Both the position numbers and the translations under genes were made by a program. Positions 1 through 62,427 of a DNA stretch of 64,000 nucleotides are shown here, one piece after another (within the stretch, counting starts at the first letter, position 1; the number at the start of each line of letters is the position of its first letter). Source of the DNA: Arenicola marina. Lineage: Eukaryota > Annelida > Polychaeta > Arenicolidae. The stretch spans positions 39,351,373-39,415,372 of the forward strand of contig OZ025260.1 in NCBI GenBank assembly GCA_964019135.1. Reading direction: 5' to 3'. The notes beneath the pieces were generated by a model, which was not told where the DNA came from, did no database searches, and saw only the letters and a program-made list of their open reading frames with translations.

Positions 1-1005
1 CCCCCACCACGGCCTGGCCACGCCCATCTACACCCACTTCACCTCCCCCATCAGGCGGTAGGTTACCTCCCCCACTACGGCCTGGCCACGCCCATCTACA
101 CCCACTTCACCTCCCCCATCAGGCGGTAGGTTACCTTCCCCACCACGGCCTGGCCACGCCCATCTACACCAACTTCACCTCCCCCATCAGGCGGTAGGTT
201 ACCTCCCCCACCACGGCCTGGCCACGCCCATCTACTCCCACTTCACCTCCCCCATCAGGCGGTAGGTTACCTCCTCCACTACGGCCTGGCCACGCCCATC
301 TACACCCACTTCACCTCCTACATCAGGCGGTAGGTTACCTCCCCCACCACGGCCTGGCAACGCCCGTCTACACCCACTTCACCCATCAGGCGGTAGGTTA
401 CTTCCCCACCACGGCCTGGCCACGCCCTTCTACACCCACTTCACCCATCAGGCGGTAGATTACCTTCCCCAGCACGGCCTGGCCACGCCCATCTACACCC
501 ACTTCACCTCCCCCATCAGGCGGTAGGTTACCTCCCCCACCACGGCCTGGCCACGCCCATCTACACCCACTTCACCCATCAGGCGGTAGATTACCTTCCC
601 CACCACGGCCTGGCCACGCCCATCTACACCCACTTCACCTCCCCCATCAGGCGGTAGGTTACCTCCCCCACCACGGCCTGGCCACGCCCATCTACACCCA
701 CTTCACCTCCCCCATCAGGCGGTAGGTTACCTCCCCCACCACATCCTGGCCACGCCCATCTACACCCACTTTACCTCCCCCATCAGGCGGTAGGTTACCT
801 CCCCCACCACGGCCTGGCCACGCCCATCTACACCCACTTTACCTCCCCCATCAGGCGGTAGGTTACCTCCCCCACCACGGCCTGGCCACGCCCATCTACA
901 CCCACTTCACCTCCCCCATCGGGCGGTAGGTTGCCTCCCCCACCGCGGCCTGGCCACGCCCATCTACACCCACTTCACCTCCCACATCAAGCCGTAGGAA
1001 ACTTT
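1..1005 (+). repeat. 68-bp minisatellite made of DIS3 exon plus splice donor
   Basis: About 15 tandem units, mostly 68 bp with a few 61-62 bp. Each unit contains roughly 53 nt of DIS3 coding sequence (HHGLATPIYTHFTSPIRR, ending in CATCAGGCG) followed by the intron start GTAGGTTACCT. Every unit therefore carries a copy of the 5' splice site. The last unit (about 930-1000) is the most diverged (CAAGCCGTAGG). The array runs off the left edge, so the genuine exon, its acceptor and the full copy number are not visible. The unit is not a multiple of three, so use of a different donor copy would change the reading frame. Confidence 0.92.
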
Positions 1006-4000
1006 TGTTTCTGATTCATTTTAACTTGATTGACACTTCTATATGTTTCTATATTGGCGGTGTGTCGTGACCTATTGCGGCCTCCGTTTTATCGCAGTCT
1101 CTTGATCTCGTTGTTCTCTTGGTTTTGGTCACGTGACCAGGTACTCTGACGTCATCGCGCACCGCCTGCTCGCCGTGTCCGTGGCGGCAGACGCTCCCTA
1201 CTCGGAGCTACTGGACAAGAGGAAGACTCAGGTCTGTGTCTGTAGAACGCTCAGCAGTTTTGTTTAATTTCTCCAAAGCAAAACAAGCTCAGCAAGTCTG
1301 TTCACACTTTACATCGTGACGTCATGGCATTGTTATGGTTATGGCGAAAGTTATAACTTTCTTATGTTAGTTTTTTTTTTGTCCTGAATCTTTACGTTTA
1401 AAATTAAAAAAATAATCCTTAAACATTGAGAATAAAAAACGCGCTAACTATACTAGGTTATAACTAGGTGGGTATAAGTATGTAATTTATTTATTTATCG
1501 ATTTAAGTCATTTGTGAGATACACTGTTTTCTTAACATAGCACACAAGAATAAACATAAATCAAACTATTTTGGTATAAATGCACGGATTACTTCTTATG
1601 TATTCTTATGTACTATCATACCTGCGATTGTACAGACCGGTAACCGTGCTGCGTCTTACTGATGTCATGGCTCTTACCTTCCTGCGCAGGCGTTGTGTCA
1701 CAATCTCAACTTCCGGCACCGGATGGCGCAGTATGCGGGCCGCGCGTCTGTGTCGCTCCACACACAGGTAACAACAAGCTGGGTCCCTGCCCCCGAGGGC
1801 AGGCTCTGGGGCAGGCTAGGTCCCTGACCCCCTGGGACAGCTTGGGTCCCTGACCCCTGGGCCACTCTGGGTCCCTGACCCCCTGGGACAGGCTGGGTCC
1901 CTGTCCCCTAGGGACAGGCTGGGTCCCTGTCCCCCTGGGACAGGCTGGGTCCCTAACCCCTGGGATAGGCTGGGTCCCTGATCCCCTGGGATAGGCTGGG
2001 TCCCTGACCCCCTGGATCAGCCTGGTCCCTGATCCCCTGGGACAGACTGGGTCCCTGATCCCCTGGGACAGGCTGGGTCCCTGATCCCCTAGGACAGGCT
2101 GGGTCCCTGACCCCCTGGCACTGGCTGGGTCCCTGACCCCTGGGGCAGACTGGGTCCCTGACCCCCTGGGACAGGCTGGGTCCCTGACCCCTTGGGACAG
2201 GCTGGGTCCCTTGCCCCTGGGGCAGGCTGGGTCCCTGACGTCTGGGACAGGCTGGGTCCCTGACGTCTGGGACAGGCTGGGTCCCTGACCCCCTGGGACT
2301 GTCTGGGTCCCTGACCCCTGGGACAGGCTGGGTCCCTGACCCCCTGGAACAGGCTGGGTCTCTGCCCCCCTTTCCATGTCATATATCTCCGTTAAATAGA
2401 CGATCGTAATAGACATAAAGTACAGTATAAACCCCCTAAACTGAACCCTGAGTAACCGATGTTAAAGGAGTTTATCGCTTTACCCCAAGTTCTGCTCCTC
2501 GAGGACCATTCAGTTTATACATGGTCTGCTGTATTTAGAAGGACATTTATTGATCTTTTTCTAATCATGGGTTATGGCGAGTCACAAATAAAATTGCGTG
2601 GTTTTGTTGCAGATTTTTTTCAAAAACCGCGTGATGGACGAGCAAGGTTACATCCTGTTTGTCCGTAAGAACGCCCTGCAGGTGCTCATCCCCAAGTTCG
2701 GGCTGGAGGGGACCGTGTACCTGGCAGACACCAAGGGCAAGACCATGTTCACCTTCTGCGAGGAGGTAGGCTCAAATCGGCCCGGACACACTGATGAGCG
2801 ATCTGCTGATGGCAATTTTTGGGGATCGTTATCCGTACAATTCCTGGTTCCAGTCCGAAGACCATTTTCCTATTTACCGCGATCCGTTAGAGCGGTCTGC
2901 AAATTTCTCGATATTCGCGATAACACCATTATTTGTTGTTTTCGCGCCCGTCTTTAAAATGTCTTAATCTTGGAGATTCGATATTGCTCTCTACAATTCT
3001 TGGGGATTCACGATTCAGAGGGGGTATCCCACCCATTACAGGGGGCCTCCTCGGTCTAGTGGTTTGCTCTAACTAGACCGCAGATCAATAGGTCCTGGGT
3101 TGGACTCTGGACCTGGTACGTTGTTTCATCCACTCGCCCTCCGCCGTCCCGGTGGGTCCTCGTCTTAGTTTAACCCTTATGTGCACGAAAGCGGTCTAAA
3201 ACACCAAATTAATTTCATTTTGCAATCTCAAATGTAGGTTTACATTTTAAAAGCTGCAATGAAAGATGATCTGTGGTGTGACGATTTTAACCAAGTGAGC
3301 ATATGGCAAATACTTTACGGCTCTAACACCTTAACAACACTTTAGTGACAAAACACTTTGGTGACACAACACTTTGGTGCCACAACACTTTGGTGACACA
3401 ACACTTTGGTGACACAACACTTTAGTAACACAACACTTTGGTGACACAACACTTTGGTGACACAACACTTTGGTGACGCAACACTTTGGTGACACAACAC
3501 TTTAGTGACAACACTTTGGTGACACAACACTTTGGTGACACAACACTTTAGTGACAAAACACTTTAGTGACAAAACACTTTGGTGACACAACGCTTTAGC
3601 TACACACTTTGGTGACAACAGTTTGGTGACACAACACTTTGGTGACAACGCTTTAGCTACACACTTTGGTGACAACACTTTGGTGACAACACTTTGGTGA
3701 CACAACACTTTGGTGACAACACTTTGGTGACACAACACTTTGGTGACACACTTTGGTGACACAACACTTTGGTGACAACACTTTGGTGACAACACTTTGG
3801 TGACACAACACTTTGGTGACCAGACTTTGGTGACACAACACTTTGGTGACAACACTTCGGTGACAACACTTTGGTGACAACACTTTGGTGACAACACTTT
3901 GGTGACACGACACTTCGGTCTGTGGTTGTCTTGTTTCAATACGCTTGACGGCTAGTCCTGTGTTTGTCTTGCGCAATTCTGCCTCTGATGGGATGTGACG

Positions 4001-5263
4001 TGGGGGTGTGTGTTTCAGGAGACCACCCAGACCTGCGGGGACACCGTCCTCCGACCCTTCGACCCTGTCACCGTCCAGGTCAGCATCGACAGAACCAACA
4101 TCCAGCACCAGAAACTCTGCCTCAAGCTTGTCCAGCCAGAGGTGAGGGTCGCGGTGGCCGTGGGGGCTGCGGGGGGCGCTGGGAGCCATGGTGTGGGCTG
4201 CCGAGGCCGGGAAAAGCCATGTAGCCTTAAAGCAATATGTTATGTAATTTTTATATTACCAATCTCTTCTCCATGTCAAATAAGCATATTCTGTCTTGAA
4301 TTGAAATCCTGAAAGCCTGTGGGCTATCCGGAGAGAAGCACATTTGTTCACCGGAGCAGAAGTTTGGTGGCTGGCTTTATATCCCTGTGCGCCTATTTGC
4401 TGTTCTGTCTCCTGTGTGATGTCGACCGTGGCTCGCTAGGACGTCCGCGCGCCATAAACTAGTCAGCGCAGTTTTCTGTCGAATATTGTGGTTTTACAGA
4501 CTCACCGAGATATTTGGTAAAATGCATCATAATTTTGAGATACTTCTTGATTATAAAATGTATAAAATCTAGAATTATTCATGTAAGTAGGCGGTCTTAA
4601 AGTTATTTGTACATATATTTCCCGCCAATTAAAAACAATCTGCGACATGTACTGGAACGAAAGATTAGCATTCACATTTAACAGAACTGTAACAACTGTG
4701 CTATGTGCACTACGTCACAGATTTGTGTGCACCATTTTTGTGATGCTGAGTAGGCTACAGACAATGCATTCTGGTGGCAGGAATAGGTTATTGCACTGGT
4801 CACGACGTAAAGTGAGACGATTTGAGATCGGAATGATTTTGGCGGGAAACACAGACTATTTCTCGTACATAGTTTAGCCGGATACAGTGAATAGTCGGCA
4901 AAAATGACCAAACAGTTACATGTCAAATTTAGCCGACGAAGCCCCGTAGTGGGCTAAACTGAGTCTGTGAATAGCTTTAAGTTTGGGGTGGAAGCTCTCT
5001 GGTTTGTTGTCGTTACATTATGGAGATTGGGAACTGAATGGCTACAGATACCCACACGATTAATGTGCTGGCTGCCGGGAAATTGGGAACTGGATTCTGG
5101 AGAGGGGTTTGGGTGATTGATTGGGATGTGTCTAAGGTGGGTCTCTCACTGATGATCTGTGCTGTCATGTGTGTTACAGATCCCCGGATTCAGTGTTCCT
5201 AGCGTCGCGACGGCTCAAGCTACCTCGGAGCCACCCAGCAAGAAGGTCAAGTCATCCAGATAG
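1..5263 (+). CDS. DIS3: DIS3/RRP44 exosome exoribonuclease, 3' part of gene
   Basis: 3'-to-5' exoribonuclease subunit of the RNA exosome. Only the C-terminal part is in the window. Supported exons: an exon ending in the array at 1-1005 (5' end outside the window), then 1141-1231, 1690-1767, 2613-2765, 4019-4141 and 5180-5263. All have AG/GT borders and phases that join without a shift. The visible protein reads the end of the RNB domain (HHGLATPIYTHFTSPIRR, then YSDVIAHRLLA), the linker ALCHNLNFRHRMAQYAG, and the S1-like domain (VLIPKFGLEGTVYLAD, then NIQHQKLCLKLVQPE). It ends in a short basic tail, KKVKSSR, and a TAG. The order and motifs match DIS3 rather than DIS3L2. Oddities: the first visible exon and its donor are tandemly repeated about 15 times, and the stop codon lies in a two-copy 49-bp duplication. 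The catalytic aspartates and the PIN domain are upstream of the window. Confidence 0.9.
1141..1231 (+). CDS. DIS3: DIS3 exon, end of RNB domain
   Basis: Starts after GTGACCAG and ends at ACTCAG before GTCTGT. It supplies the last base of an Arg codon, then 30 codons (YSDVIAHRLLAVSVAADAPY and on to DKRKTQ). Phase 2/0 joins it exactly to the AGGCG end of the repeated upstream exon, restoring the RNB signature SPIRRYSDV. Confidence 0.92.
1690..1767 (+). CDS. DIS3: DIS3 exon, RNB-S1 linker
   Basis: 26 codons, phase 0/0, from CTGCGCAG to CACACAG|GTAACA. The product is ALCHNLNFRHRMAQYAGRAS followed by VSLHTQ, matching the conserved helix after the RNB core in DIS3 proteins. Confidence 0.92.
1778..2367 (+). 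repeat. 26-bp minisatellite in DIS3 intron
   Basis: About 22 units of roughly 26 bp with the core GCTGGGTCCCTGACCCC. It begins only about 10 nt after the splice donor at 1768 but, unlike the other exon-edge arrays, does not include exon sequence. It creates long open frames on the minus strand with a repeated RDPACPRG-type pattern, which I treat as spurious. Confidence 0.9.
2613..2765 (+). CDS. DIS3: DIS3 exon, start of S1-like domain
   Basis: 51 codons, phase 0/0, from TTTTGTTGCAG to GAGGAG|GTAGGC. The product includes IFFKNRVMDEQGYILFVRKN and VLIPKFGLEGTVYLAD, the first strands of the C-terminal OB fold. Confidence 0.93.
3042..3175 (+). mobile_element. tRNA-derived SINE fragment in DIS3 intron
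   Basis: The sequence from GGGGCCTCCTCGGTCTAGTGG has an A-box-like TGGTCTAGTGG-type segment. A B-box-like GGGTTGGACTCTGG follows about 50 nt later, as in the head of a tRNA-derived SINE. A downstream non-tRNA body runs to about 3175. No poly-A tail or clear target duplication was found. It is not an intact tRNA gene. Confidence 0.5.
3326..3925 (+). repeat. 13-16-bp minisatellite in DIS3 intron
   Basis: Several dozen units of ACACTTTGGTGACA with or without an extra CA, giving 13- to 16-bp periods. It lies in the 2766-4018 intron. The minus-strand open frames here (KVLCHQSVV repeats) are artefacts of the repeat. Confidence 0.92.
4019..4141 (+). CDS. DIS3: DIS3 exon, S1-like domain
   Basis: 41 codons, phase 0/0, from GTGTTTCAG to CCAGAG|GTGAGG. 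The product ends in QVSIDRTNIQHQKLCLKLVQ, corresponding to the conserved DSSNLQHQKIRMSLVEPQ segment of vertebrate DIS3. Confidence 0.92.
4231..4596. mobile_element. piggyBac-like MITE (copy 1)
   Basis: 366-bp non-coding element flanked by TTAA (4227-4230 and 4597-4600). It is alignable along its length to the copy at 59,673-60,045. The left end, AGCAATATG, matches the terminal repeat of that copy; the right end is degraded. It lies in the last DIS3 intron and shares its right TTAA with the next element. Confidence 0.75.
4601..4976. mobile_element. second TTAA-flanked MITE next to copy 1
   Basis: 376-bp stretch starting AGTTATTTG and ending AATAGCT, bounded by TTAA at 4597-4600 and 4977-4980. 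The ends are short imperfect inverted repeats. The interior differs from the neighbouring 4231-4596 element, so this is a separate family inserted at or beside the same TTAA. Confidence 0.55.
5180..5263 (+). CDS. DIS3: DIS3 terminal exon
   Basis: From TGTGTTACAG to TAG: 27 codons, IPGFSVPSVATAQATSEPPS then KKVKSSR. The IPGFSVP start matches PQIPGISIP of other DIS3 proteins, and the lysine-rich tail is typical. Confidence 0.92.
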   Translation: MPGFSVPSVATAQATSEPPSKKVKSSR

Positions 5264-5357
5264 AGGTCGAGGTCACACGAGCGACCTTTTGTGGGTCATG
5301 TCATCCAGATGGAGGTCGAGGTCACACGAGTGACCTTTTGTGGCTCAAGTCATCCCA
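5251..5357 (+). repeat. 49-bp duplication across the DIS3 stop codon
   Basis: GTCATCCAGA occurs at 5251 and 5300, and GTCATCC again at 5349, giving about 2.2 units of 49 bp. Unit 1 contains the last coding codons and the TAG. Unit 2 repeats them with TGG in place of TAG and lies in the 3' UTR. Confidence 0.9.
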
Positions 5358-5476
5358 ATGCGCTTAACCTTACTGGGTGAAAACGGCTTATGTATAATAT
5401 GACGTAGAAGGTATTTTAAATGTCAATACTTGTATAAATATCGATTGCAAAGAATTATTGTACCCGCGTCATACAC

Positions 5477-5482
5477 AATAAA
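5477..5482 (+). promoter_or_regulatory. DIS3 polyadenylation signal
   Basis: AATAAA 214 nt after the DIS3 stop codon, the first canonical hexamer downstream on the plus strand. Confidence 0.7.
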
Positions 5483-5773
5483 GCGCCATTACTGATTACT
5501 TGGATGAGTGCTTGTTTATATCACCATGGCAACAGCTTGTCTAATGCCAGATATCTAACCGCTCGATCGACCAGCTTATAGCTGTGCCTGTTGAAAGTCT
5601 CGATGTGTTCTAAAACGTCACCCCGATCCAGGTCTTAATGTAGACTGAAACCACAACTACTGCACATCCATCGTAGTTGGCACACGGACGGATGCCAACC
5701 ACAAATGTAGCCTGAATTACCTGAAATAAACCGTTAGCGTCGTCTGCAAACATAACTTAATTGGATGACGTAA

Positions 5774-6092
5774 ACAACTGTAATGATGATGAAACACATT
5801 GCCAGTAATAAACACCTATAATGATGAAACACGTTGCCAGTAGTAAACACCTGTAATGAGGATGAAACACATTACCAGTAATAAACACCTGTAATGATGA
5901 AACACGTTGCCAGTAGCAAACAGCTGTAATGATGATGAAACATGTTGCCAGTAGCAAACACCTGTAATGATGATGAAACACGTTGCCAGTAATGATGAAA
6001 CATGTTGCCAGTAATAAACACCTGTAATGATGATGAAACACGTTGCCAGTGCATAATAAACACCTGTAATGATGAAACACTTTGCCAGTAGT
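5774..6092 (+). repeat. about 38-bp minisatellite downstream of DIS3
   Basis: Eight to nine imperfect units with the core GATGAAACACGTTGCCAGTA, with some units shortened. It lies between the convergent DIS3 and SLC6-A genes. No exon overlap is seen. Confidence 0.85.
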
Positions 6093-6095
6093 ATA

Positions 6096-8091: not shown

Positions 8092-8253
8092 TCAGGGAAC
8101 CTGCCGCCCCTGATCGACCATGTGGAAGGCCTTGACGGGGTCTCCATCCTGGACTAGGATGTCCCTGCAGGGTGCACCCCCCTGGTCGTACTTGGGTCCG
8201 GCCTCGGCGGAGGGCCCCCAGTCTGGGGCAGGACGGCTGAGTCGCTTGAGGCG
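8092..8253 (-). CDS. SLC6-A terminal exon E14
   Basis: After CCTCCTCAG, 53 codons and [23 protein letters not shown] is the conserved cytosolic juxtamembrane segment (DWGP as in glycine transporters). The rest of the tail, ending GRQVP, has no counterpart in SLC6-B. Confidence 0.88.
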   Translation of the reverse strand, partial: RLKRLSRPAPDWGPSAEAGPKYDQGGAPCRDILVQDGDPVKAFHMVDQGRQVP

Positions 8254-11200
8254 CTGAGGAGGGCACAAGACAGTACGGTGATAATAGGATTAATGTACAC
8301 GTACCATTAGTACGATTGGTTATATATTCAGGACGCTTTAACCACTTTTGGTGCGAACCATCGATCCACGCGCCGTAAGGCCCTCAGGTGGCCAGAGCAC
8401 TCAAGGCGAGGGACCTGACCCACTGAGCTACCAGGCCGGCCCCTCCATTAGTACGGTAGTAGTCATGACGAGTAATATACAGCATGGTATTGGTACTAGT
8501 ATGATTAATATCATAAACAGACCAATAGAAAGATAATACTAGTAGCATTAGCATGGCTTGCAAAATACTACTAACTACTAAATGTTTAGAACCCGTATTA
8601 TAATATATTAGGAATAGTACCAGAAAGAAAGTAACACCAGGGTTAGTCTTATTAGGTTTAGTACAAGTTAAGTATTACAAGAACGACAGTATAGCACCAT
8701 ATCATGTATAAAAGTTATTTTTTGAAGGAAATACTGACCCCCAAGACTGGTCCGCGTTCCCTGATGACCTTGTAGAGGGCGATGGTGGGGAGGGGGACGA
8801 TGGAGCTTATGGCGAACACCCACCCCACCCCCACCGCCCATCCCGGGTACTCGTAGGACCCGTATGTCACTGCCTCATGGCTGATGACACAGAACGACAA
8901 GATGAACTGAAAGACAAGGTAAACAAAAGCAACAATATCAGAACTGGGGATGGAACAATTATATTGCTAGATAGGTGATCTCAGGCTACAATATCAGAAC
9001 TGGGGATGGAACAATTACACTGCTAGATAGGTGATCTCAGGCTACAATATCAGAACTGGGGATGGAACAATTACACTGCTAGATAGGTGATCTCAGGCTA
9101 CAATATCAGAACTGGGGATGGAACAATTATATTGCTGGATGAGTGATCTCAGGCTACAATATCAGAACTGGCGATGGAATAATTACACTGCTAGATAGGT
9201 GATCTCAGGCTACAATATCAGAACTGGGGATGGAACAATTACACTGCTAGATAGGTGATCTCAGGCTACAATATCAGAACTGGGGATGGAACAATTACAC
9301 TGCTAGATAGGTGATCTCAGGCTACAATATCAGAACTGGGGATGGAACAATTATATTGCTGGATGAGCGATCTCAGGCTACAATATCAGAACTGGGGATT
9401 GAACAATTACACTCCTAGATGGGTGATCTTAGGGTACAATATCAGAACTGGGGATGGAACTGCTAGATGGGTGACATGGGGCCCAGAGAGGGCTATGTCT
9501 CTCCCACCACGGAGAGCTGTGTACATACTCACCACGATGAGGAAGGGGGTGACCACGCCCCACATGGCCTTCCACCACACAGACGGTCGGTAACCAATCA
9601 TCAGCTCGATGTCGCAATATAGCCTCTCGGCGCCTGCGAATTAAAATTAAGGAATTAATTATCTATGCATACATTAATGATGCGGAACGTATACCACGTG
9701 TTTCTAAATAATATTATACTTACTTAAAATAGTAAAGTTGGTCCAATCGTGTTACCAAGTCTGGTAGCCATGTATGCCACATATGTAAGTCGACCAGAGC
9801 TGTGCAAGTACCGTAGATCCAGGAGATGCGTACATAAGGCGGCCCAGAGCTGTGTACGTACCGTAGATCCAGGCGATGCGTACATAGGGCGGCCCAGAGC
9901 TGTGTACGTACCGTAGATCCAGGCGATGCGTACATAAGGCGGCCCAGAGCTCTGCACGTACCGTAGATCCAGGCGATGCGTACATAGGGCGGCCCAGAGC
10001 TGTGTACGTACCGTAGATCCAGGCGATGCGTACATAAGGCGGCCCAGAGCTCTGCACGTACCGTAGATCCAGGCGATGCGTACATAGGGCGGCAAAGAGC
10101 TGTGTACGTACCGTAGATCCAGGCGATGCGTACATAGGGCGGCAAAGAGCTGTGTACGTACCGTAGATCCGGGAGATGCATACATAGGGCGGCCCAGAGC
10201 TGTGTACGTACCGTAGATCCAGGCGATGCGTACATAGGGCGGCCAAGAGCTGTCTACGTACCGTAGATCCGGGAGATGCATACATAGGGCGGCCAAGAGC
10301 TGTCTACGTACCGTAGATCCAGGCGATGCGTACATCGGGCGGCCCAGAGCTGTGTACGTACCGTAGATCCAGGAGATGCATACATAGGGCGGCCAAGAGC
10401 TGTCTACGTACCGTAGATCCAGGAGATGCGTTCATAGGGCGGCCTATAGCTCTGCACGTACCGTAGATCCAGGCGATGACCATACACTCGGTGAAGGACA
10501 CGACCATCAGGGACCACGTGGATCCGTACCAGTCCAGGATCTGCAGGAAGTAAATCCCGCCCTGGATGGGGAAAGAGGTGGGGGGGGGGGGGGGAGGGGG
10601 GCTGGTTAGGATATGGCGCCAGATTGACAGTCAGTTATGCTACGCACATCCTAATGTATACTTATACTTGAATCTTGTCCACGTTAATCTGTACACTGCT
10701 CATATATCATTTTTTTCCATGAGAAATATTTAAAAGAAATCCGATCTACGTGAATAAGTTTATTGACCTCTTTATTGTATAAAGACATTGCTCTAGTAGG
10801 CAAGAACCAAACAGGAGGTGCTTTAGGATAAGTATTTTAAGACTGGTTATCAGACTGGTACAGGTCACTGTAGAAAAGGCGTCCCGGTAATTTTTATGAA
10901 GCAATCCGTGATTAATTATTCACAAAGGAAAAGCTGTAAGAGCAACTTTAACTACTTTCGTCGCATTGATCCTGTATTATCGCTCACCGTGTTGGAGTTT
11001 GTGGTATCCCAGATCACATGACATACTTACGTGTGTGATACAGGGCAGCCCCATCAGGAACTCCAGACAGCAGACGGCCGCTGTCACCTGGATCTTCTTG
11101 GTCTTCAGGATCGGATACTCGTCAAACAGCGCACTTGTCATAGTTTGAAACATGGCGCACTGCGGTTAAAGCATTTGTCCGTAAGTAGGATTAATCACAT

Positions 11201-25125: not shown

Positions 25126-25186
25126 CTTGAAAGTGAAGTAAAATCTCGGAACGGGTTAGGAACAAGAATTCACTCGGGTATATAAT

Positions 25187-37215: not shown

Positions 37216-37385
37216 CCACCAGACTTGTATAATAGTGCCCCGCCGTCCCCCGGGCTTTATCTATCGGTGCCCATTTTTTGTTTATATTGAATCTCGCGTC
37301 ATGCTGGTCGCCTTGCGTGTAAATCATTAAACCGTTCTGAAGCTAGGTCCGAGACATGAATCATTCAAAACGCTTTGCATGCGTA

Positions 37386-37490
37386 TCACTGTCCACTACT
37401 GATAGTAGTCTGCTCCACGGACTCCCCTCACCCGAGGAGACGGCGGCGCCGCGCAGCGGCAGTCTGCGGAAGAGACTACTACTGATAGCC
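37386..37490. repeat. short imperfect inverted repeat
   Basis: CTACTGATAGTAGTCTGCTC at the left and GAGACTACTACTGATAG at the right enclose a GC-rich CGGCGGCGCCGCGC core. Possibly a small foldback; no target duplication seen. Confidence 0.4.
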
Positions 37491-47988: not shown

Positions 47989-48159
47989 TTACACCATGGC
48001 GTTTTTTTTCTCATCGTCTGTGTCGAGGATTCGGTCGTGGTTGAGGTGTTTGATGACGTCACAGTCCTTCTCGCTGTGGGTGAAGGCCAGGTACCCTGCT
48101 TTGTGGACCTCGAGGGCTGGCCCCCAGTCGGCGGCAGGTCGCACCAACCGCTTCACCCG
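47989..48159 (-). CDS. SLC6-B terminal exon E14
   Basis: 56 codons then TAA, beginning [20 protein letters not shown]. The last codons AAC-GCC-ATG-GTG-TAA run straight into the 48-bp array, so the C-terminal AMV and the stop are array sequence. The last non-array residues are DEKKN. Confidence 0.88.
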   Translation of the reverse strand, partial: RVKRLVRPAADWGPALEVHKAGYLAFTHSEKDCDVIKHLNHDRILDTDDEKKNAMV

Positions 48160-51100: not shown

Positions 51101-54100
51101 GCGGTGACCTCCCTCTACAAGACCAGGACCGATCGCGTTACGCACTAGGCCACGCGGTGACCTCCCTCTACAAGACCAGGACCGATCGCGTTACGCACTA
51201 GGCCACGCGGTGACCTCCCTCTACAAGACCAGGACCGATCGCGTTACGCACTAGGCCACGCGATGACCTCCCTCTACAAGACCAGGACCGATCGCCTTAC
51301 GCACTAGGCCACGCGGTGACCTCCCTCTACAAGACCAGGACCGATCGCGTTACGCACTAGGCCACGCGGTGACCTCCCTCTACAAGACCAGGACCGATCG
51401 CCTTACGCACTAGGCCACGCGGTGACCTCCCTCTACAAGACCAGGACCGATCGCGTTACGCACTAGGCCACGCGGTGACCTCCCTCTACAAGACCAGGAC
51501 CGATCGCGTTACGCACTAGGCCACGCGGTGACCTCCCTCTACAAGACCAGGACCGATCGCGTTACGCACTAGGCCACGCGGTGACCTCCCTCTTCAAGAC
51601 CAGGACCGATCGCCTTACGCACTAGGCCACGCGGTGACCTCCCTCTACAAGACCAGGACCGATCGCGTTACGCACTAGGCCACGCGGTGACCTCCCTCTA
51701 CAAGACCAGGACCGATCGCCTTACGCACTAGGCCACGCGGTGACCTCCCTCTACAAGACCAGGACCGATCGCCTTACGCACTAGGCCACGCGGTGACCTC
51801 CCTCTACAAGACCAGGACCGATCGCCTTACGCACTAGGCCACGCGGTGACCTCCCTCTACAAGACCAGGACCGATCGCGTTACGCACTAGGCCACGCGGT
51901 GACCTCCCTCTTCAAGACCAGGACCGATCGCCTTACGCACTAGGCCACGCGGTGACCTCCCTCTACAAGACCAGGACCGATCGCGTTACGCACTAGGCCA
52001 CGCGGTGACCTCCCTCTACAAGACCAGGACCGATCGCGTTACGCACTAGGCCACGCGGTGACCTCCCTCTACAAGACCAGGACCGATCGCCTTACGCACT
52101 AGGCCACGCGATGACCTCCCTCTACAAGACCAGGACCGATCGCGTTACGCACTAGGCCACGCGGTGACCTCCCTCTTCAAGACCAGGACCGATCGCCTTA
52201 CGCACTAGGCCACGCGGTGACCTCCCTCTACAAGACCAGGACCGATCGCGTTACGCACTAGGCCACGCGGTGACCTCCCTCTACAAGACCAGGACCGATC
52301 GCCTTACGCACTAGGCCACGCGATGACCTCCCTCTACAAGACCAGGACCGATCGCCTTACGCACTAGGCCACGCGGTGACCTCCCTCTACAAGACCAGGA
52401 CCGATCGCCTTACGCACTAGGCCACGCGGTGACCTCCCTCTACAAGACCAGGACCGATCGCGTTACGCACTAGGCCACGCGGTGACCTCCCTCTACAAGA
52501 CCAGGACCGATCGCCTTACGCACTAGGCCACGCGGTGACCCCCCTCTACAAGACCAGGACCGATCGCCTTACGCACTAGGCCACGCGGTGACCCCCCTCT
52601 ACAAGACCAGGACCGATCGCCTTACGCACTAGGCCACGCGCTGACCCCCCTCTTCAAGACCAGGACCGATCGCCTTACGCACTAGGCCACGCGGTGACCT
52701 CCCTCTACAAGACCAGGACCGATCGCCTTACGCACTAGGCCACGCGGTGACCTCCCTCTACAAGACCAGGACCGATCGCCTTACGCACTAGGCCACGCGG
52801 TGACCTCCCTCTACAAGACCAGGACCGATCGCGTTACGCACTAGGCCACGCGGTGACCTCCCTCTACAAGACCAGGACCGATCGCGTTACGCACTAGGCC
52901 ACGCGGTGACCTCCCTCTACAAGACCAGGACCGATCACGTTACGCACTAGGCCACGCGGTGACCCCCCTCTACAAAACCAGGACCGATCGCCTTACGCAC
53001 TAGGCCACGCGCTGACCCCCCTCTACAAAACCAGGACCGATCGCGTTACGCACTAGGCCACGCGGTGACCTCCCTCTACAAAACCAGGACCGATCGCCTT
53101 ACGCACTAGGCCACGCGGTGACCTCCCTCTACAAAACCAGGACCGATCGCCTTACGCACTAGGCCACGCGGTGACCCCCCTCTACAAAACCAGGACCGAT
53201 CGCCTTACGCACTAGGCCACGCGCTGACCCCCCTCTACAAAACCAGGACCGATCGCGTTACGCACTAGGCCACGCGGTGACCTCCCTCTACAAAACCAGG
53301 ACCGATCGCCTTACGCACTAGGCCACGCGGTGACCTCCCTCTACAAGACCAGGACCGATCGCGTTACGCACTAGGCCACGCGGTGACCTCCCTCTACAAA
53401 ACCAGGACCGATCGCCTTACGCACTAGGCCACGCGGTGACCTCCCTCTTCAAGACCAGGACCGATCGCCTTACGCACTAGGCCACGCGGTGACCTCCCTC
53501 TTCAAGACCAGGACCGATCGCGTTACGCACTAGGCCACGCGGTGACCTCCCTCTACAAGACCAGGACCGATCGCCTTACGCACTAGGCCACGCGGTGACC
53601 TCCCTCTTCAAGACCAGGACCGATCGCGTTACGCACTAGGCCACGCGGTGACCTCCCTCTACAAGACCAGGACCGATCGCCTTACGCACTAGGCCACGCG
53701 GTGACCTCCCTCTACAAGACCAGGACCGATCGCGTTACGCACTAGGCCACGCGGTGACCTCCCTCTACAAGACCAGGACCGATCGCGTTACGCACTAGGC
53801 CACGCGGTGACCCCCCTCTACACTAGGTCACGCGGGGACCCCCCTCTACACTAGGTCACGCGGTGACCCCCCTCTACACTAGGTCACGCGGGGACCCCCT
53901 CTACACTAGGTCACGCGGTGACCCCCTCTACACTAGGTCACGCGGTGACCCCCTCTACACTAGGTCACGCGGTGACCCCCCTCTACATTAGGTCACGCGG
54001 TGACCCCCTCTACACTAGGTCACGCGGTGACCCCCCTCTGAAAAACAAGGACCGTGACCCATAACCCCAACAGCATGGGGGTAGGGGGGCATAGGGGAGG

Positions 54101-57100
54101 CGGAAGGGGAGGAGTGGGGAGAACGGCTATATCTCAGAGGCCCTATTAAAGCAGGGATAAAGCGATAATGTGAGCCGGTTTCATACGTAAGGATGCCCTT
54201 AGTGCCCTGGGGCCGTATTCATAATCGCCACTTAGGCTACGCCGTTAGACTTAGCGCTAAGTGAAAGATTTGTCAAGCGATTATCGGGTTCAAAACACAT
54301 AAGTACTCACCCAAAAAGTGAATTTTCTGAATTAAGAAAGTGGTAAAATTATATTGAAGAGGATTTCTTAATCATGAGCACCACAACAAAGAGCTGGTGA
54401 GGCTAAGACGAAAATGCACTCTTCGTGCGCAACTTACGAGGGGATTATGAATACGGCCCCTGGTCCCTGGGTCGGCCCGGATGCTGCATGGCCAGCTACA
54501 CGCGGATTAAGGAGGGTGTGTCTGACACATGTCATGAAAATACGTCACAGGGCGGCACGTCAACAGCACCTATTACATGTACTTACGTGTGTAATACAGG
54601 GCAGCCCCAGCAGGAACTCTAGACAGCAGATGGCCGCTGTCACCTGGATCTTCTTGGTTATGAGGATCGGATACTCGTCAAACAGCGCACTTGTCATGGT
54701 TTGAAACATGGCGAACTGGAAAGTCCCACATATGTGTGAATTATTTTATAGAAATGGGACTGGTTGGATAATTTATTTACTCAGTTGAACACTTTATTTT
54801 ACTGGTTTTACCGTTTATCCAACAGACATTGCTCAAATAGTTATCAGTCCTTGATCCATAAATGTAGTTGTTATACTCATTTCACCGGTTCAAATGAAGA
54901 TCCCCAAACTAATAGCTGAAATACTCTCTTCATTTGGTCACATTCAGCCATCTTGGCCCGGGTTTTGTATGTCTAAACTCCCATCAACAAGGATGAAGCG
55001 GACATGGTTCCGTGGATCTCACCTGGCTGCCGAGGCCCACCGAAAACAACATAGCGAAGAAGAGGATGGCCCAGATCTGGGACAGCGGGAGGGCGGCCAC
55101 TGCCTGGGGGTACACCACGAACACCAGCCCGGGACCTGCGACAGAAGGGCGTGGTCAGAACGCAGACGGCAGCCATCGGTGAATGCACGTATACATGTAG
55201 GCGGTGGCCAATTGGAATCTTCTGTGGTTCAGTAATGGTTATACATGCTATATAGAACACGCACAACGTTATGCATTGATTTATAAATACATCGTACAAA
55301 GCATGCAGGCTTCGCAAAGTCAGTCTGTAAGTGCACCAGTCCACTCATAAGTATTGCACTAATTGTATTGAACTGGTGCAAACTGATACCATGAAAGTAT
55401 ATAAGGTAAGTGTTATTATTATATTAAGTAAAAGCGAAGATTTACACTAATGACCCCGACTTGAGCTTTTCGAATTATTGCAGTAAGTGCAATTTCCCCG
55501 AGATGTGTGACGTCATCGTGAATAACCGTTTTGATTGGCTGCTTTACCTTGCGTGACGACGTCCTGGATCTCTGATCCGGTCACGTGAGCCATGAAGCCA
55601 ATGATGGAGAAGATAACAAACCCGGCGAAGATGCTGGTTCCGCTGTTGAGCATGGGAACCAGGAGGGCGTCCCTGATTGTGGAGATTGGGGAGGATGGTC
55701 AGGGCACCAGCTTAGCGCAGGGAACTTGGCGGTTAACAACAGACCACGTGTTTGCAACATGATTTGGTGGCAGACCACTGTGGCTAAGACATATAACGAC
55801 TTCAGGACGGTTTAAAACTCTTGAAGGCATATGAATGACATATTGTCGACTCCTATTCCACTGTGGGCCAATGTGGCTAATGAGATGATTAAGATGATAA
55901 TACCTTATGCATTTTGTTATGCATTATATTGAACTATGTATGAAGGTCATAAAACATATTTCTCTCATATCTCAAAATGATTTACATTAAATAATGTCTT
56001 TATTCCTGGTCTCCAACCTCTGTCAAGACCTGCCGTATGACATATAAAGGGCCCCAGAGGAGCTTTTTTGACAAGGCGACACAGCGATTTTTAAAATCGA
56101 CAACGCGACATTGGGGTTGTCTTAGAATCGACATGCGACATAAGACTTAGCGACACGCGACATGAAACTGTTCTTAAAATCGACACGCGACATGGACCTT
56201 TTCTTAAAATCGACACGCGACATGGACCTTTTTTTTAAATCGACAAGCGACATGGCTAGCCCCCCCTCAGGGGCCCTATATAACACAGGGGTTTGTGCAC
56301 TCGAGCCCTTCGCTGCCCACCTGTAGCAGTTGTTGTGGAACTTGTTGTAGCTGGCCATGGTGATCAGAGCGCCCCAAGCGGCGCCGATGGAGTAGAAGAT
56401 CTGCATGGCTGCCTCGCCCCAAATCTACCGTGTCACAGAGCCCACGTGGTCAGTCAAATACGACGCGAACTTTATACATTACCCACATTCTCACAAAGAT
56501 CAGACACGTATTCTCAATACTTATCAGTATTCCCCCCAACGAAAATAACTATACGTAGTAGAGATAAGCAGAGGACAAGCATAAAACTATATCAGTAGAC
56601 TGTAGCATAATTAAGTTCATATTATTATCTTCTAAGCGATACGAAAAATATTATTCTATAACTGCAATATCGGACTGTACCTGTTGATAGCCAGTTCATA
56701 TTTAGTTAATAGCCTCGTTTGATATAAACACAATAACTACCTGCATCGTCAGCAGTTTATTCCAGTCGGGAATAATGTAGAACTTGATGCCCTCCCAGGA
56801 TCCAGGTAGAGTGACCCCCCTCCCCAGCAGTATCAACAGCACGAGGTACGGAAAAGTGGCAGTGAAATACACAACCTGAAATAGAGGGTTAAATAATATA
56901 AAATACCACACAACATGTATGCAATTATGATCGTTTATTTTACGGTTACGGGGATTTTCTCTGATAAGAATTGAACATATTTATCCCATATTTGTTATCA
57001 CAACCTATTGCACGAGGGTGAAGTTGTAATCCGCTCATTGATTTCGCACGTTAACCGCCACGAGCATAAGGTCACATTAATAATACTTAATAACAGTAAT

Positions 57101-60100
57101 ATTTTATCATATTATACTTTCATAATAGGAATCTTTAATTGGTCATTTTTTAATAATATTAAAATTTAATAATGATTACATTTTCTTACTTAATAACAAT
57201 GTATATAAACAATATTTAATATTGTTATCTAATCATAATATCTGATAATAGGATTTAATAAATAATAATATTTAATAATAATATATTAAAACAATATGTA
57301 ACACTATATGCATAAGCTTAATATATTGATAATCAAGCGTATTGCAAGTATTATATCAAACATATGTCGACGTCTGGGGAGCAACAAAAGTAAGCCAGGG
57401 GCTCACTATACATATGGACGCAGCGTGAGGTAACGCTCGGCGCCTCAGAGAATACTCACCCTGCCCGATGACTTAATGCCCTTAATTAGGCAGAGAAACA
57501 CCGCGACCCAAGCGAAGAGAAGGCAGCCGAAGAGCTCCCAGCGGATGCCGCCCATGTTGTCTATACCGTCAGAGATCTGTAGCACCTGGCGCCTGAATCA
57601 CCATAGCAACCAGAACAAGCTATAGCAACCATTTCACCATCAACGCAGATGAAATCCAATCATATGGTGTTTTAATTATGCCGCTTTTATGCACACAAGG
57701 ACTAAAATAGGTCAAGGGACATCTTGGGATTCGCCCGGATCACCCCCTCCCCCCCTCCCTCCCGCCCCCCAGCCCAGTATAGATAAAGATCCGACGTTAG
57801 ACGGTTACTTAACGGAGGCATGCGATATGTAATCGCCTATACACACAGGTTTAGGCTCATTCACGTGACTCTTCATTTTCGCTACGAAATCATTTGAAAT
57901 AATTAGTAAACCTTTGGAATTAACCACGTTTTTTTAAAATAATCAGTGTACATCATTTAAATTGTATCCGACGATGATGCTACAATTATTGCTAAATATA
58001 GCTGGATGCCCTTTACTCTGCTTGTGATTGTGATGACAGGTGAAGGTACTTGAACGCTGAACGAATTATTTTGTACAGAATATATCACAAATGGTACTAT
58101 TATAAACTACCGTGCTAGAATAATTCCACTTACTCCCAGAATTCCTCGCTTGGGGATATGAACTTCGTTCCATTGGCGATGGTGTCGTTACCAAGGGAAC
58201 CGTTGTTCATCGACACCGCGTCGTCAAGGTAATCGCTCGTAGCCATGGTGACGTCATATCCAGAGTCGTTGCCATAGAGAGAGAGGTTGGCGTGTGGCGG
58301 GGTCCGGAGGACACAGCGGTCGGTGTTCCAGCTGTTGTCACACGTGGCCCAGGGCAGGACAGGCATAAAGGAGTGGATGAGGTAGTACACGGTCCAGGCG
58401 ATGATGACGTTGTAGTAGATACACACGATGGCAGAGATGATCACCATCCCGTAACCAATACCTACAGTATAGAAAGCCAAACCTATATTAATACCTTTGC
58501 TTTTGGCAGATATAATGGTACGAATGATTCTGAAACTGGCACAAAGAGAGAAATGAAATGACACCAGTAGTCAAACAATATTGCACAGACGCAATGGGGC
58601 CGACACGCATCAGCCCAGGGCATCAGCCCAGGGCATCAGCCCAGGGCATCAGCCCAGGGCATCAGCCCAGGGCATCAGCATAGGGCATCAGCCCAGGGCA
58701 TCAGCCCAGGGCATCAGCTCACGCATCATTACCATCATTATTAACTATAAAAACAAGTAGTGGCCTTTTGCCAGTACGAGAACAAACCCGAAAGATCTTA
58801 TTACAAGTGGCAACTTGTAGTTTGTAGTCGTTAAAACATTAAGGCAAAGACAAAAAGATCACCTCCCTTCGCCTTTAACAATATCCACCCTCGCCCCCCC
58901 GCCCCCCCAATTGGGCGTCCTTTCTCAGTGCAAAATGTACACCATTTTGGCGTGTCCTTTCTCCTGTTTTTTGTACATGACCCTCCCCTTTTATTTCACT
59001 ACCTGCCCAAAGTGGACTTCCCTTCTCACGGATAACTCACCTTTAAACAGAGGGCTGCATGGGCGTATAACTCACCTTTAAACAGAGGGCTGCATGGGCG
59101 TATAACTCACCTTTAAACAAAGGGCTGCATGGGCGTATAACGCCTTTTAACAGAGGGCGAGATGGGCGTATAACTCACCTTTAAACAGAGGGTTGGATGA
59201 ACATATAACTCACCTTTAAACAGAGGGCTGGATGGGCGTATAATTCACCTTTAAGCAGAGGGCTGGATGGGCGTACAACTCACCTTTAAACAGAGGGCTA
59301 GATGGGCGTATAACTCACCTCTAAACAGAGGGTGGGATGAACATATAATTCACCTTTGAACAGAGGGCTGCATGGGCGTATAACTCACCTTTAAACAAAG
59401 GGCTGGATGGGCGTATAACATCTTTTAACAGAGGGCGGGATGGGCGTATAACTCACCTTTAAACAGAGGGTAGGATGAACATATAACTCACCTTTAAACA
59501 GAGGGCTAAATGGGCGTATAACTTACCTTAAAACAGAGGGTTGGAGGAACTGATAACTCACCTTTAAACAGAGGGCTGGATGGGCGTATAATTCACCTTT
59601 AAGCAGAGGGCTGGATGGGCGTATAACTCACCTCTAAACAGAGGGTTGGATGAACATATAATTCACCTTTAAAGCAATATATTCCGTAATTTTTTGTATT
59701 ACCAACCTCTTCCCCATGTCAAATAAGTATATTCTGTCTTGAATTTGAATCCTGAAAGCATGTGGGCTATCCGGAGAGAAGCATTTTGGTCAACGGAGCA
59801 GAAGTTGGTGGCCGGCTTTATATCCCTGCGCGCCTGTTCGCAGTTCGCTATTTTGTGTGCGAGGTCGACCGCGGTTCGCTATCACGTCCGCGCGCGATAA
59901 AAATAAACCGCGCAGTTTTATGTTGAAATTGTTGTTTTACAGACTCTCAGAGATCTAAAACTTATATGCATCATAATTTTGAGATACTTTTAGTCTTGAT
60001 TCTAACATGTAAACAATCTAAGATGGCGCATGTAAGTATATTGCTTTAAACAGAGGGCTGCATGGGCGTATAATTCACCTTTAAGCAGAGGGCTGGATGG

Positions 60101-62427
60101 GCGTACAACTCACTTTTAAACAGAGGGCTAGATGGGCGTATAACTTACCTCTAAACAGAGGGTTGGATGAACATATAATTCACCTTTAAACAGAGAGATG
60201 CATGGGCGTATAACATCTTTTAACAGAGGGCGGGATGGGCGTATAACTCACCTTTAAACAGAGGGTTGGAGGAACTTATAACTCACCTTTAAACAGAGGG
60301 CTGAATGGGCGTATAATTCACCTTTAAGCAGAGGGCTGGATGGGCGTATAACAGACCTTTAAACAGAGGGCTGAATGGGCGTATAATTCACCTTTAAGCA
60401 GAGGGCTGGATGGGCGTATAACTGACCTTTAAACAGAGGGTTGGATGAACTTATAACTCACCTTTAAACAGAGAGCTAGATGGGCGTATAACTCACCTTT
60501 AAACAGAGGGTTGGATGAACTTATAACTCACCTTTAAACAGAGGGCTGGATGGGCGTATAATTCACCTTTAAGCAGAGGGCTGGATGGGCTTATAACTCA
60601 CCTTTAAACAGAGAGCTAGATGGGCGTATAACTTACCTTTAAACAGAGGGTTGGATGAACTTATAACTCACCTTTAAACAGAGGGCTGAATGGGCGTATA
60701 ATTCACCTTTAAGCAGAGGGCTGGATGGGCGTATAACTCACCTTTAAACAGAGAGCTAGATGGGCGTATAACTCACCTTTAAACAGAGGGTTGGATGAAC
60801 TTATAACTCACCTTTAAACAGAGGGCTGGATGGGCATATAATTCACCTTTAAGCAGAGGGCTGGATGGGCTTATAACTCACCTTTAAACAGAGAGCTAGA
60901 TGGGCGTATAACTTACCTTTAAACAGAGGGTTGGATGAACTTATAACTCACCTTTAAACAGAGGGCTGAATGGGCGTATAATTCACCTTTAAGCAGAGGG
61001 CTGGATGGGCTTATAACTCACCTTTAAACAGAGAGCTAGATGGGCGTATAACTCACCTTTAAACAGAGGGTTGGATGAACTTATAACTCACCTTTAAACA
61101 GAGGGCTGAATGGGCGTATAATTCACCTTTAAGCAGAGGGCTGGATGGGCGTATAACTGACCTTTAAACAGAGGGTTGGATGAACTTATAACTCACCTTT
61201 AAACAGAGGGTTGGATGAACTTATAACTCACCTTTAAACAGAGGGTTGGATGAACATATAATTCACCTTTAAACAAAGGGCTGGATGGGCGTATAACATC
61301 TTTTAACAGAGGGCGGGATGGGCGTATAACTCACCTTTAAACAGAGGGTTGGAGGAACTTATAACTCACCTTTAAACAGAGGGCTAAATGGGCGTATAAC
61401 TTACCTTTAAACAGAGGGCTGGAGGAACTTATAACTCACCTTTAAACAGAGGGCTGAATGGGCGTATAATTCACCTTTAAGCAGAGGGCTGGATGGGCGT
61501 ATAACTGACCTTTAAACAGAGGGTTGGATGAACTTATAACTCACCTGTAAACAGAGAGCTAGATGGGCGTATAACTCACCTTTAAACAGAGGGTTGGATG
61601 AACTTATAACTCACCTTTAAACAGAGGGCTGGATGGGCATATAATTCACCTTTAAGCAGAGGGCTGGATGGGCTTATAACTCACCTTTAAACAGAGGACT
61701 CATCCTCCAGACGGTGATGGGGCTGAGGCTGGCGAACTGTCCGTAGGATACCTCCAGGAAGAACAGAGGCATTCCGCACAGCGCCAGGAAGATCAGGTAA
61801 GGGATCAGGAAGGCAGCTGAAGGTCAAACCAGGTTAAATTACTTAACCACACCAAAGGCTACACGCCCGGACCAACGAACGGCCACGAGAAGTGGTAGAA
61901 GATATGACATGTTTATATCCGTTTGTCATGCCATTTATTAAAATTGCATTGTCGGATGAAGAGAATATATAAAATACAAAGCTTATGCATAGAAAACTAT
62001 TTTTCTTATGACAACCGATATTAGTAATGCATTATACTCTGGGTCTGCATAAAATGACCCATGCAATCATTTGGTTTTGGAGAAATAGAGAACGTGCTAA
62101 TGCGTATTTTGTTGATGGCTATTTAGAATCTAGCAAATTATGGCGAGCGATATTTTACGGAAATATATGTTGTTCTACCAACAAATACACCCAGATAACT
62201 TTACATCTACAGTGTGACACAAACATCTCACCGCCGCCATTCCTGTAGCAGAGGTAGGGGAAGCGCCAGATGTTGCCCAGACCCACGGCGTAGCTGATGC
62301 ACGACATGATGAAATCCAGACGACCGATCCAGTTGCCACGCTCTTTGTTCTCGTCACCGCTCGACGACCCATCGGAAGAGAGCGAGACTGAGGCCGACGA
62401 CTTTTTACGGCAGCCCATGTCGTAAAC
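47989..62427 (-). CDS. SLC6-B, glycine-transporter-like Na+/Cl- symporter
   Basis: Tandem paralogue of SLC6-A with the same exon phases. Exons in coding order: E2 62232-62427, E3 61685-61816, E4 58134-58461, E5 57460-57592, E6 56741-56875, E7 56321-56424, E8 55548-55672, E9 55023-55135, E10 54587-54715, E11 49597-49696, E12 49078-49178, E13 48724-48891, E14 47989-48159. They join to 644 codons plus stop. E2 begins after a good acceptor (TTTTTTTTCATCCAG), so a first exon is missing, probably beyond 64,000. TM1 [16 protein letters not shown] lacks the monoamine Asp. TM7 has NSGTS; TM8 begins with GLGSQ (GLGTQ in SLC6-A). EL2 has five sequons. The C-terminal tail [16 protein letters not shown] then [11 protein letters not shown] differs from SLC6-A and ends NAMV. 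Two introns hold huge arrays. Confidence 0.88.
49808..49985 (-). mobile_element. tRNA-derived SINE whose head seeds the 53-bp array
   Basis: Minus-strand body with GGGATAAAGATTCCATATC and AAGAGTAAGTGGTTAT, and a B box GTGGTTCCAATCCC. The head GGTCACCGCGTGGCCTAGTG (A box) lies at the boundary where the array begins. It is related to the SINE at 14166-14430. Confidence 0.75.
49965..53815 (-). repeat. 53-bp minisatellite made from a SINE tRNA-like head
   Basis: About 72 units. Each contains, on the minus strand, GGTCACCGCGTGGCCTAGTG then CGTAACGCGATCGG, the A-box part of the SINE head, plus TCCTGGTCTTGTAGAGGGA. Units vary at a few fixed positions (CGTTACG/CCTTACG, CTACAAG/CTTCAAG). It lies in the SLC6-B intron between E11 and E10. 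Confidence 0.93.
53815..54045 (-). repeat. about 29-bp derivative array
   Basis: About eight units of CTACACTAGGTCACGCGGTGACCCC, a shortened form of the 53-bp unit lacking the CAAGACCAGGACCGATCG segment. Confidence 0.88.
54209..54460. mobile_element. MITE with GGGGCCGTATTCATAATC ends
   Basis: GGGGCCGTATTCATAATC at 54,209 and its inverse GATTATGAATACGGCCCC ending at 54,460. 252 bp, non-coding, lying about 125 bp from the E10 donor of SLC6-B. Confidence 0.8.
56065..56260 (+). repeat. about 31-bp minisatellite in SLC6-B intron 7
   Basis: About six units around AAAATCGACACGCGACATGG. Ends about 60 bp before the E7 donor without including it. Confidence 0.85.
56321..57592 (-). CDS. SLC6-B exons E5 to E7 (TM4 to TM6)
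   Basis: E5 57460-57592 ([22 protein letters not shown]4), E6 56741-56875 ([22 protein letters not shown]5) and E7 56321-56424 ([21 protein letters not shown]6). E7 is 103/104 identical at nucleotide level to SLC6-A E7 while the surrounding introns are unrelated. Confidence 0.9.
57050..57350. other. AT-rich low-complexity stretch in SLC6-B intron
   Basis: Dominated by TAATAATATT-type words. No gene. Confidence 0.6.
58134..58461 (-). CDS. SLC6-B exon E4, TM3 and EL2
   Basis: [30 protein letters not shown], then EL2 with sequons NLS, NDS, NGS, NDT and NGT, ending [11 protein letters not shown]. The middle of EL2 ([19 protein letters not shown]) has no tandem repeat, unlike SLC6-A. Confidence 0.92.
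58608..58720 (+). repeat. 15-bp repeat GGGCATCAGCCCA
   Basis: About eight near-identical 15-bp units in the E3-E4 intron of SLC6-B. Confidence 0.9.
59035..61684 (-). repeat. 35-bp minisatellite copying the SLC6-B E3 end and donor
   Basis: About 65 units. On the minus strand each holds CCTCTGTTTAAAG|GTGAGTTATA, the last 13 nt of exon E3 plus its splice donor, then a GCCCATCCAGC spacer. Variants include GTGAATTATA and units in which AAG|GTG is altered. The array begins directly at the genuine donor (61,684) and fills most of the intron. It is split once by a MITE. Confidence 0.95.
59673..60045. mobile_element. piggyBac-like MITE (copy 2), inside the 35-bp array
   Basis: 373 bp with AGCAATATA at the left and TATATTGCT at the right, flanked by TTAA (59669-59672 and 60046-60049). 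Removing it and one TTAA restores a normal array unit, so the insertion followed array formation. Confidence 0.88.
61685..61816 (-). CDS. SLC6-B exon E3, TM2
   Basis: 132 bp: [20 protein letters not shown] then [19 protein letters not shown] and SPLFK. The 3' end is the seed of the 35-bp array. Confidence 0.92.
62232..62427 (-). CDS. SLC6-B exon E2, N-terminus and TM1
   Basis: [20 protein letters not shown], then a Ser-rich cytosolic segment, [20 protein letters not shown] and [15 protein letters not shown]. If the upstream acceptor is not used, translation could begin at the ATG at 62,418. Confidence 0.88.

Follow-up and report, generated by a model that had tools for sequence, protein, structure and literature searches.

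The stretch of DNA analysed here, hereafter the window, comprises 64,000 nucleotides of the annelid Arenicola marina (assembly GCA_964019135.1, 867 Mb in 762 contigs; contig OZ025260.1, positions 39,351,373 to 39,415,372), and the analysis concerns tandem repeat arrays that overlap the ends of its coding exons. Homology to solved structures allowed the annotation of glycine-transporter-like SLC6 genes and of DIS3/RRP44. The predicted gene models, which were built from open frames, GT-AG sites and phase, include the 13 exons of the glycine-transporter-like SLC6-A (8092..16243, minus strand; start codon provisional), the 13 exons of SLC6-B (47989..62337, minus strand) and the last five exons of DIS3 on the plus strand (1141..1231, which follows the array-bearing intron, 1690..1767, 2613..2765, 4019..4141, its acceptor uncertain by 12 nt, and 5180..5263, with the stop codon at 5261-5263). 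The exons of both SLC6 genes are counted from the first conserved residue. An earlier annotation made from the letters alone (the sequence-only reading) has numbers higher by one; the position of the SLC6-A exon 5 donor (near 13454) is approximate. An Rfam search of the window revealed no family at gathering score. The repeat inventory was made with Tandem Repeats Finder (TRF), which returned 59 rows for the window; when merged, these represent 37 arrays touching it and covering 22,952 of the 64,000 bases.

Six repeats had been reported at the edges of coding exons by the sequence-only reading, and all six exist, although details need correcting. A splice donor is contained in three large arrays and in a duplication of two copies, and two repeats include stop codons. 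On the minus strand, a 50-bp unit repeated 13.7 times (9794..10478) spans the donor (10462) of SLC6-A exon 10 (10462..10561; E11 in the earlier numbering), and a 35-bp unit repeated 76 times (59032..61697) spans the donor (61685) of SLC6-B exon 2 (61685..61816). The two-copy duplication, missed by TRF, has a 35-bp unit as well and lies at ~15391..15460 (minus strand) over the donor (15448) of SLC6-A exon 2 (15448..15579). Its unit is homologous to the 35-bp unit of SLC6-B and occupies the same donor of these tandem paralogues; the common unit and donor point to one origin, hence the six cases represent five origins. As for the stop codons, a 48-bp array of ~180 copies (39476..48001, minus strand) covers that of SLC6-B and the region downstream, overlapping only ~10 coding nt and the stop, and a 49-bp repeat of 2.3 copies (5245..5355, plus strand) covers that of DIS3 together with 16 coding nt. 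A weak 17-bp repeat of 2.1 copies (score 51; 8883..8918, minus strand), absent from the earlier list, overlaps an SLC6-A acceptor (8906). SLC6-A exon 3 also contains an in-frame 18-bp coding repeat (NDSFLG; 14863-14943), i.e. a coding minisatellite that keeps the frame.

Only the downstream end of the DIS3 array is located in the window (1..998, plus strand), its 68-bp unit consisting of ~58 nt of exon end and ~10 nt of intron with the donor. The array does bear donors, as had been claimed, but all 15 of its copies within the window lie in the intron, and the true exon end is situated ~60 kb upstream. An RNB-domain search of the contigs placed the exon carrying the array at C13:39291238-39291429; the end of this exon lies within the array (C13:39291371-39291428, ~58 exon nt in the first unit), and the coding frame continues into the array (701 bases read there). 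Assuming no interruption between probes, the array extends over ~C13:39291371-39352370, that is, ~61.0 kb and roughly 900 copies. It occupies all of three 10-kb stretches upstream of the window, each of 12 further probes between the exon end and this contiguous part matched the unit at 0.97 to 1.0, and two probes upstream of the array start gave no unit match (0.45 each). The 31 kb read through contain 429 ungapped copies with 72 distinct sequences, as well as long exact repeats, e.g. 400-mers 15,756 apart. Exon-side and intron-side positions of the copies are equally variable (0.970 and 0.973), hence they show no sign of coding constraint. The same search produced five other RNB-domain matches (C4:29455745, C4:17891182, C11:38622791, C11:38695898 and C11:38759371), each nearly complete in one open frame (1365-1454 aa), which constitute a multicopy gene or element that is intronless in that part.

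The sequence-only reading held that exon edges are hit too often for chance. For the 37 arrays of the window, a collapsed-seed expectation gives 0.76 donors, 0.76 acceptors and 0.08 stops, and the donors and stops observed (3 + 2, DIS3 counted) correspond to P ~0.002. The excess is thus unlikely by chance but post hoc, since the window was picked for these very cases. A test outside the window was based on exons picked by homology alone, prior to any repeat search: 18 SLC6 regions of 10 kb (L013-L030), the first 40 of the 77 myosin-head matches listed, 20 of 49 CCT matches in list order (two in one long frame skipped), and 10 actin/Arp exons hand-picked from 69 matches so as to avoid the actin tandem cluster, some of them from the same gene. 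Exon edges were called by splice scoring around the homology match, and exons without a clear site were not counted; this left 38 donors and 34 acceptors of the 40 myosin exons and 19 and 17 of the 20 CCT exons. Nine of the 10 actin donors were read by eye, and 10 acceptor probes were used. SLC6 matches wholly within arrays, and edges far from the conserved junction, were dropped; 58 of the 67 SLC6 donor calls coincide exactly with a conserved intron position, seven of these being array donors. One of the three CCT donors touched according to TRF (L073) was removed because it lies ~29 nt before its array. Expectations were derived from array density and unit length, for CCT and actin with a per-edge rate of ~0.03 borrowed from the remaining loci. 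Among the myosin matches, the same model segments are matched repeatedly at C4:367768-383133, probably representing exons of a muscle myosin gene that are used in a mutually exclusive manner.

Arrays span 25 of the 141 donors outside the window, where 4.8 are expected (P = 6e-11), and four of the 127 acceptors, where 4.3 are expected; the donor versus acceptor difference is significant as well (Fisher p = 1e-4). By family, the spanned donors amount to 15/75 (SLC6), 6/38 (myosin), 2/19 (CCT) and 2/9 (actin), and the spanned acceptors to 3/66, 0/34, 1/17 and 0/10, respectively. Without SLC6, the counts are 10/66 donors and 1/61 acceptors (p = 0.009). Collapsing of paralogues (L013/L014; exon 2 of L023/L024/L025) leaves 22/138 donors, with P = 5e-9 versus expectation and p = 4e-4 versus acceptors. 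With the window added, arrays span 27 of 169 donors and five of 156 acceptors, a count that omits the DIS3 array, whose exon lies outside the window, and the two-copy case of SLC6-A. When array seeds were placed at random in the SLC6 regions and the window (4000 trials under each of three settings), the observed donor count was never reached, the acceptors remaining within the null. Hence, the non-random association with exon ends proposed by the sequence-only reading holds for 5' splice sites on these homology-chosen exons, with acceptors at chance level, but is not confirmed for stop codons. Outside the window only one of 15 actin-family 3' ends is spanned (0.46 expected at 0.031 per edge; several are close actin paralogues). 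This case (L114, 86-bp unit) is one more true stop example without enrichment, and the two of three stops spanned in the window are post hoc; the stop-codon half of the claim is therefore unconfirmed.

Three further kinds of repeat were seen near donors. A two-copy repeat outside the main counts (L024:1429-1515) lies over a donor that splice scoring failed to call. At L125 (C17:29288016-29288206) a degenerate donor duplication is visible by eye and was placed elsewhere by TRF, so older donor duplications may be undercounted. The arrays at L033, L034, L073, L123 and L020:4118-4706 begin ~4-30 nt inside the intron, just past the donor, and were not counted as spanning it.

Array size was examined in the SLC6 regions and the window for units of at least 25 bp; the myosin, CCT and actin loci, with short flanks and arrays cut at the fetch ends, provide lower bounds of size and were excluded. 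Donors are spanned by three of 23 arrays with 1.5-2.5 copies, two of 27 with 2.5-5, one of 17 with 5-15 and, in the class of 15 copies and above, 11 of 20, the expected numbers being 0.69, 0.80, 0.49 and 0.58. None of the called acceptors is spanned by the 20 largest arrays. The 11 large donor arrays include three paralogous copies of one event and are thus equivalent to nine independent ones; of the nine other large arrays, two are cut by the fetch end and some could touch an unannotated exon. The copy number of L022, which has a composite 308-bp unit, was set by hand from its 28-bp sub-unit, and the DIS3 array, being cut by the window edge, sits in the 5-15 class as not donor-spanning. Among arrays with a TRF score >1000, 12 of 23 span a donor. 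We read these figures as a pronounced enrichment of giant arrays at donors, accompanied by a smaller excess among new duplications.

The copies themselves retain their donors to a large extent: the GT is kept in 405/429 (DIS3), 60/63 and 14/14 copies of three arrays, and a donor-like site scoring at least 4 is present in 647 of 724 copies over 11 arrays, which indicates that the extra donors are not being removed. The donor is kept no better than the remaining positions of the unit. Sequence derived from the exon and from the intron varies to a similar extent not only in the DIS3 copies but also in those of two other arrays (0.905/0.925 and 0.951/0.920), as expected for copies that are untranslated. 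Neither attractor suggested by the sequence-only reading was borne out. As for a GGT-rich or donor-like motif, in 114 arrays off the called edges a strong donor motif was found once in sense and never in antisense orientation, with ~0.4 expected each and hence low power, and the sole sense case is the continuation of a donor array. R-loops, judged by G skew, do not distinguish array donors from plain ones (p = 0.23), the intron measured at array donors being the array itself. Other candidates were likewise rejected or unsupported. Stronger donors seemed to attract arrays overall (p = 0.0005), but not clearly when only donors at conserved positions were considered (p = 0.05); in-frame use of the copies is not supported, the listed unit length being divisible by three in seven of 23 donor-spanning arrays, near one third; and a growth gradient away from the exon is not apparent, since among 11 arrays identity to the exon copy falls significantly in two, rises significantly in one and does neither in eight. 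In one myosin donor array (L045, C7:32813879-32814581), the unit includes CAG as well as a C-rich tract, which makes every copy look like a tiny exon with both splice signals.

These observations may be explained by donor-anchored minisatellites, similar to the amphioxus 'mirage' repeats, whose expansion is raised, or whose loss is spared, at a used 5' splice site; a probability of about 45% is assigned to this interpretation. The process would start with a short stretch, made up of an exon end and an intron start, undergoing ordinary tandem duplication. In the layout observed, the original donor remains beside its exon, ahead of every copy, and the copies fall in the intron; therefore splicing at this first donor, if it is the one used, would leave the protein unchanged. 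Tens or hundreds of copies are attained far more frequently by arrays at donors than by those elsewhere. A process tied to the used 5' splice site during transcription might promote expansion or protect the array from loss, and tolerance of additional donors downstream of the real one could be the second ingredient. A bias in the first duplication may contribute as well. A bolder version seems doubtful: here the used 5' splice site would be a cis determinant of minisatellite growth, co-transcriptional recognition of the donor would make a donor-bearing repeat expansion-prone or protected, and the splicing machinery would largely decide which genic repeats become giant, up to ~900 donors in one 61-kb intron.

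Several points weigh against donor-anchored expansion. The sample is limited to four gene families, whose exon edges were set by homology together with splice scoring. We infer the mechanism from the pattern, and the use of the first donor among the copies is deduced from sequence layout. Array donors are not clearly stronger than others (p = 0.05). Large donor-less arrays occur in introns, such as the 53-bp array of 73 copies inside an SLC6-B intron (49964..53822, minus strand), which lacks a strong donor and lies away from one, thus a donor is not required. Two-copy repeats are enriched at donors too (3/23, P = 0.03, L013 and L014 being one event; 4/23 with L024:1429-1515), and the middle copy classes are not clearly enriched; given this and the small numbers, growth and seeding are not cleanly separated. 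At a fetch end, L024:9866-10000 resembles an acceptor array and went uncounted because the junction filter dropped it, and L022:3345, one of the 25 donors, is overlapped by just 3 exon nt. Adding both missed L024 edges changes the donor versus acceptor comparison to p = 2e-4, adding the acceptor alone to p = 3e-4, adding it with L022:3345 removed to p = 6e-4, and adding it with paralogues collapsed to p = 1e-3. Finally, with local intron density as a baseline, donors could be called 'permitted' and acceptors 'purged'. The null that takes unit length into account was preferred, because a repeat starting 60 nt inside an exon includes the donor only if its unit is longer than that.

The choice of baseline bears on the notion that mere survivorship is responsible, i.e. 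that duplications arise evenly, those at the 3' edge of an exon survive because the first donor or stop is still first, and those at acceptors or start codons place a decoy before the real signal and are purged. When array ends were counted in 50-bp bins with unit length ignored (SLC6, myosin and the window; 141 donors, 129 acceptors), those within 100 nt on the exon side numbered 21 at donors and four at acceptors, and the first 100 nt of the intron contained similar numbers (19 versus 18), just as purging would have it; the same logic fits the stop-codon cases of the window. Under purging, however, donors should lie at background and acceptors fall short of it, whereas with unit length considered donors are ~5x above and acceptors at background. 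As it also leaves the top enrichment of very large arrays unexplained, and stops elsewhere are unenriched (1/15), survivorship alone appears rather unlikely. Unlikely, too, is donor-specific seeding, in which the first duplication is generated at the 5' splice site by R-loops, staggered nicks or a paused polymerase, and later growth is ordinary. The donor excess across the four pooled families would follow from it, as would the enrichment of two-copy repeats (3/23 versus 0.69 expected, 4/23 with the missed L024 donor), to which the SLC6-A duplication unreported by TRF adds a further case. It agrees poorly with an excess that is by far most pronounced from 15 copies upwards yet weak in the middle classes, and neither a G-skew difference nor a donor-like motif in the units of arrays away from called edges was found.

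Suppression of premature polyadenylation by U1, known as telescripting, has been described as a process (context only, from the available parts of PMC10404622), and it might permit donor arrays to lengthen if the U1 binding site of each unit protected the growing intron. The peak of the excess at large size and the donors kept by most copies agree with such tolerance; with large donor-less intronic arrays present (that at 49964-53822 and others), and donors retained no better than the rest of the unit, it is considered improbable. That the arrays arose through faulty assembly, or that the pattern reflects chance in a single selected window, is highly improbable: long arrays are indeed hard to assemble, and long exact repeats are found within the DIS3 array, but the pattern was replicated at homology-chosen loci, the copies differ (72 distinct among 429 in DIS3), and repeats of two or three copies pose little difficulty for assembly.

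Repeats of this sort have precedents. The term 'mirage', used by the sequence-only reading for amphioxus boundary minisatellites, is found in PMC3087553 and PMC3902484, and according to the available excerpts of these papers the units of the amphioxus examples (Adh3, the globins BflGb6 and BflGb9, PGBD5 and TnC) extend across an exon-intron boundary, and many of the copies contain splice signals. In both respects the arrays of A. marina are alike. The amphioxus mirages, however, have a cephalochordate host, affect both 5' and 3' boundaries and include six and three units in two BflGb6 haplotypes, with no enrichment test in the excerpts available, whereas the arrays described here have an annelid host, reach up to ~900 copies and exceed chance only at donors. 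They are termed 'mirage-like' and not members of the mirages, since the available excerpts use the term for cephalochordates and SLC6-A groups with annelids. The amphioxus host presumed by the sequence-only reading is not supported: a tree built from 25 proteins places SLC6-A beside Paralvinella (97/89) and beside Capitella (99/97), and these show the highest identity (67% and 66%) among the 120 matches listed of 5542. Within the same best 120 of 5542, a Branchiostoma protein with 51% identity is found at row 107 and the best E-value belongs to a 943-aa protein of the mollusc Tegillarca (46% identity). In this single gene tree, however, annelids as a whole are not monophyletic. Mitochondrial COX1 of the assembly is located at C762:7161-8501.

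The variable number tandem repeat (VNTR) in intron 18 of human ABCA7 is a second precedent. Its 25-bp unit, present in ~24 copies in the reference, begins with the exon 18 donor, and the donor of a later copy can at times be used, so that one unit is retained and the frame shifted (PMC5954066, in the parts available). The donor of the exon is likewise found in most, not all, units of the arrays described here, but ABCA7 is one locus where the repeat begins at the donor GT, and no genome-wide donor bias is reported in the accessible text. Intron gain through tandemly duplicated splice-like sites (PMC3087553 and PMC4974935, as far as excerpted) shares the start from a tandem duplication containing a splice signal. 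It differs in that the SLC6 introns, in which this was tested, have donors at conserved positions and hence are old, not newly gained; the arrays enlarge existing introns.

Thus, boundary repeats are already known from amphioxus and ABCA7, and what is new is their occurrence in an annelid, the size they reach and their bias towards donors. A literature search of open-licence PubMed Central papers, as far as their text was accessible, yielded no report of annelid boundary-spanning repeats and no genome-wide donor versus acceptor count of arrays. A study of earthworm metallothionein (PMC12783039) reports minisatellites in introns and, in its accessible text, describes no exon overlap, and the main text of the Alvinella genome paper (PMC12403961) has 0 occurrences of 'tandem repeat' and 'satellite'. 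If donor-anchored expansion is true, splice-site position would be linked to repeat expansion, and the ABCA7 VNTR, which carries the donor of its exon, is one disease-related locus of this sort. An oddity of amphioxus is extended to a protostome and made countable. The genome also offers a natural test of how the spliceosome chooses one donor among hundreds of near-identical ones, ~900 in a row in DIS3, and both the donor-acceptor contrast and the size dependence can be checked in any annotated long-read assembly.

Two other features of the window lie outside DIS3 and the SLC6 genes. Long open frames of 299, 234, 166 and 142 aa on the minus strand (19265-22008) possibly belong to a mobile element. 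Close to them, at 18758-19131, two neighbouring arrays are apparently reverse complements of each other, with GCGAGAAC-type units followed by CTCGCGTT-type units.

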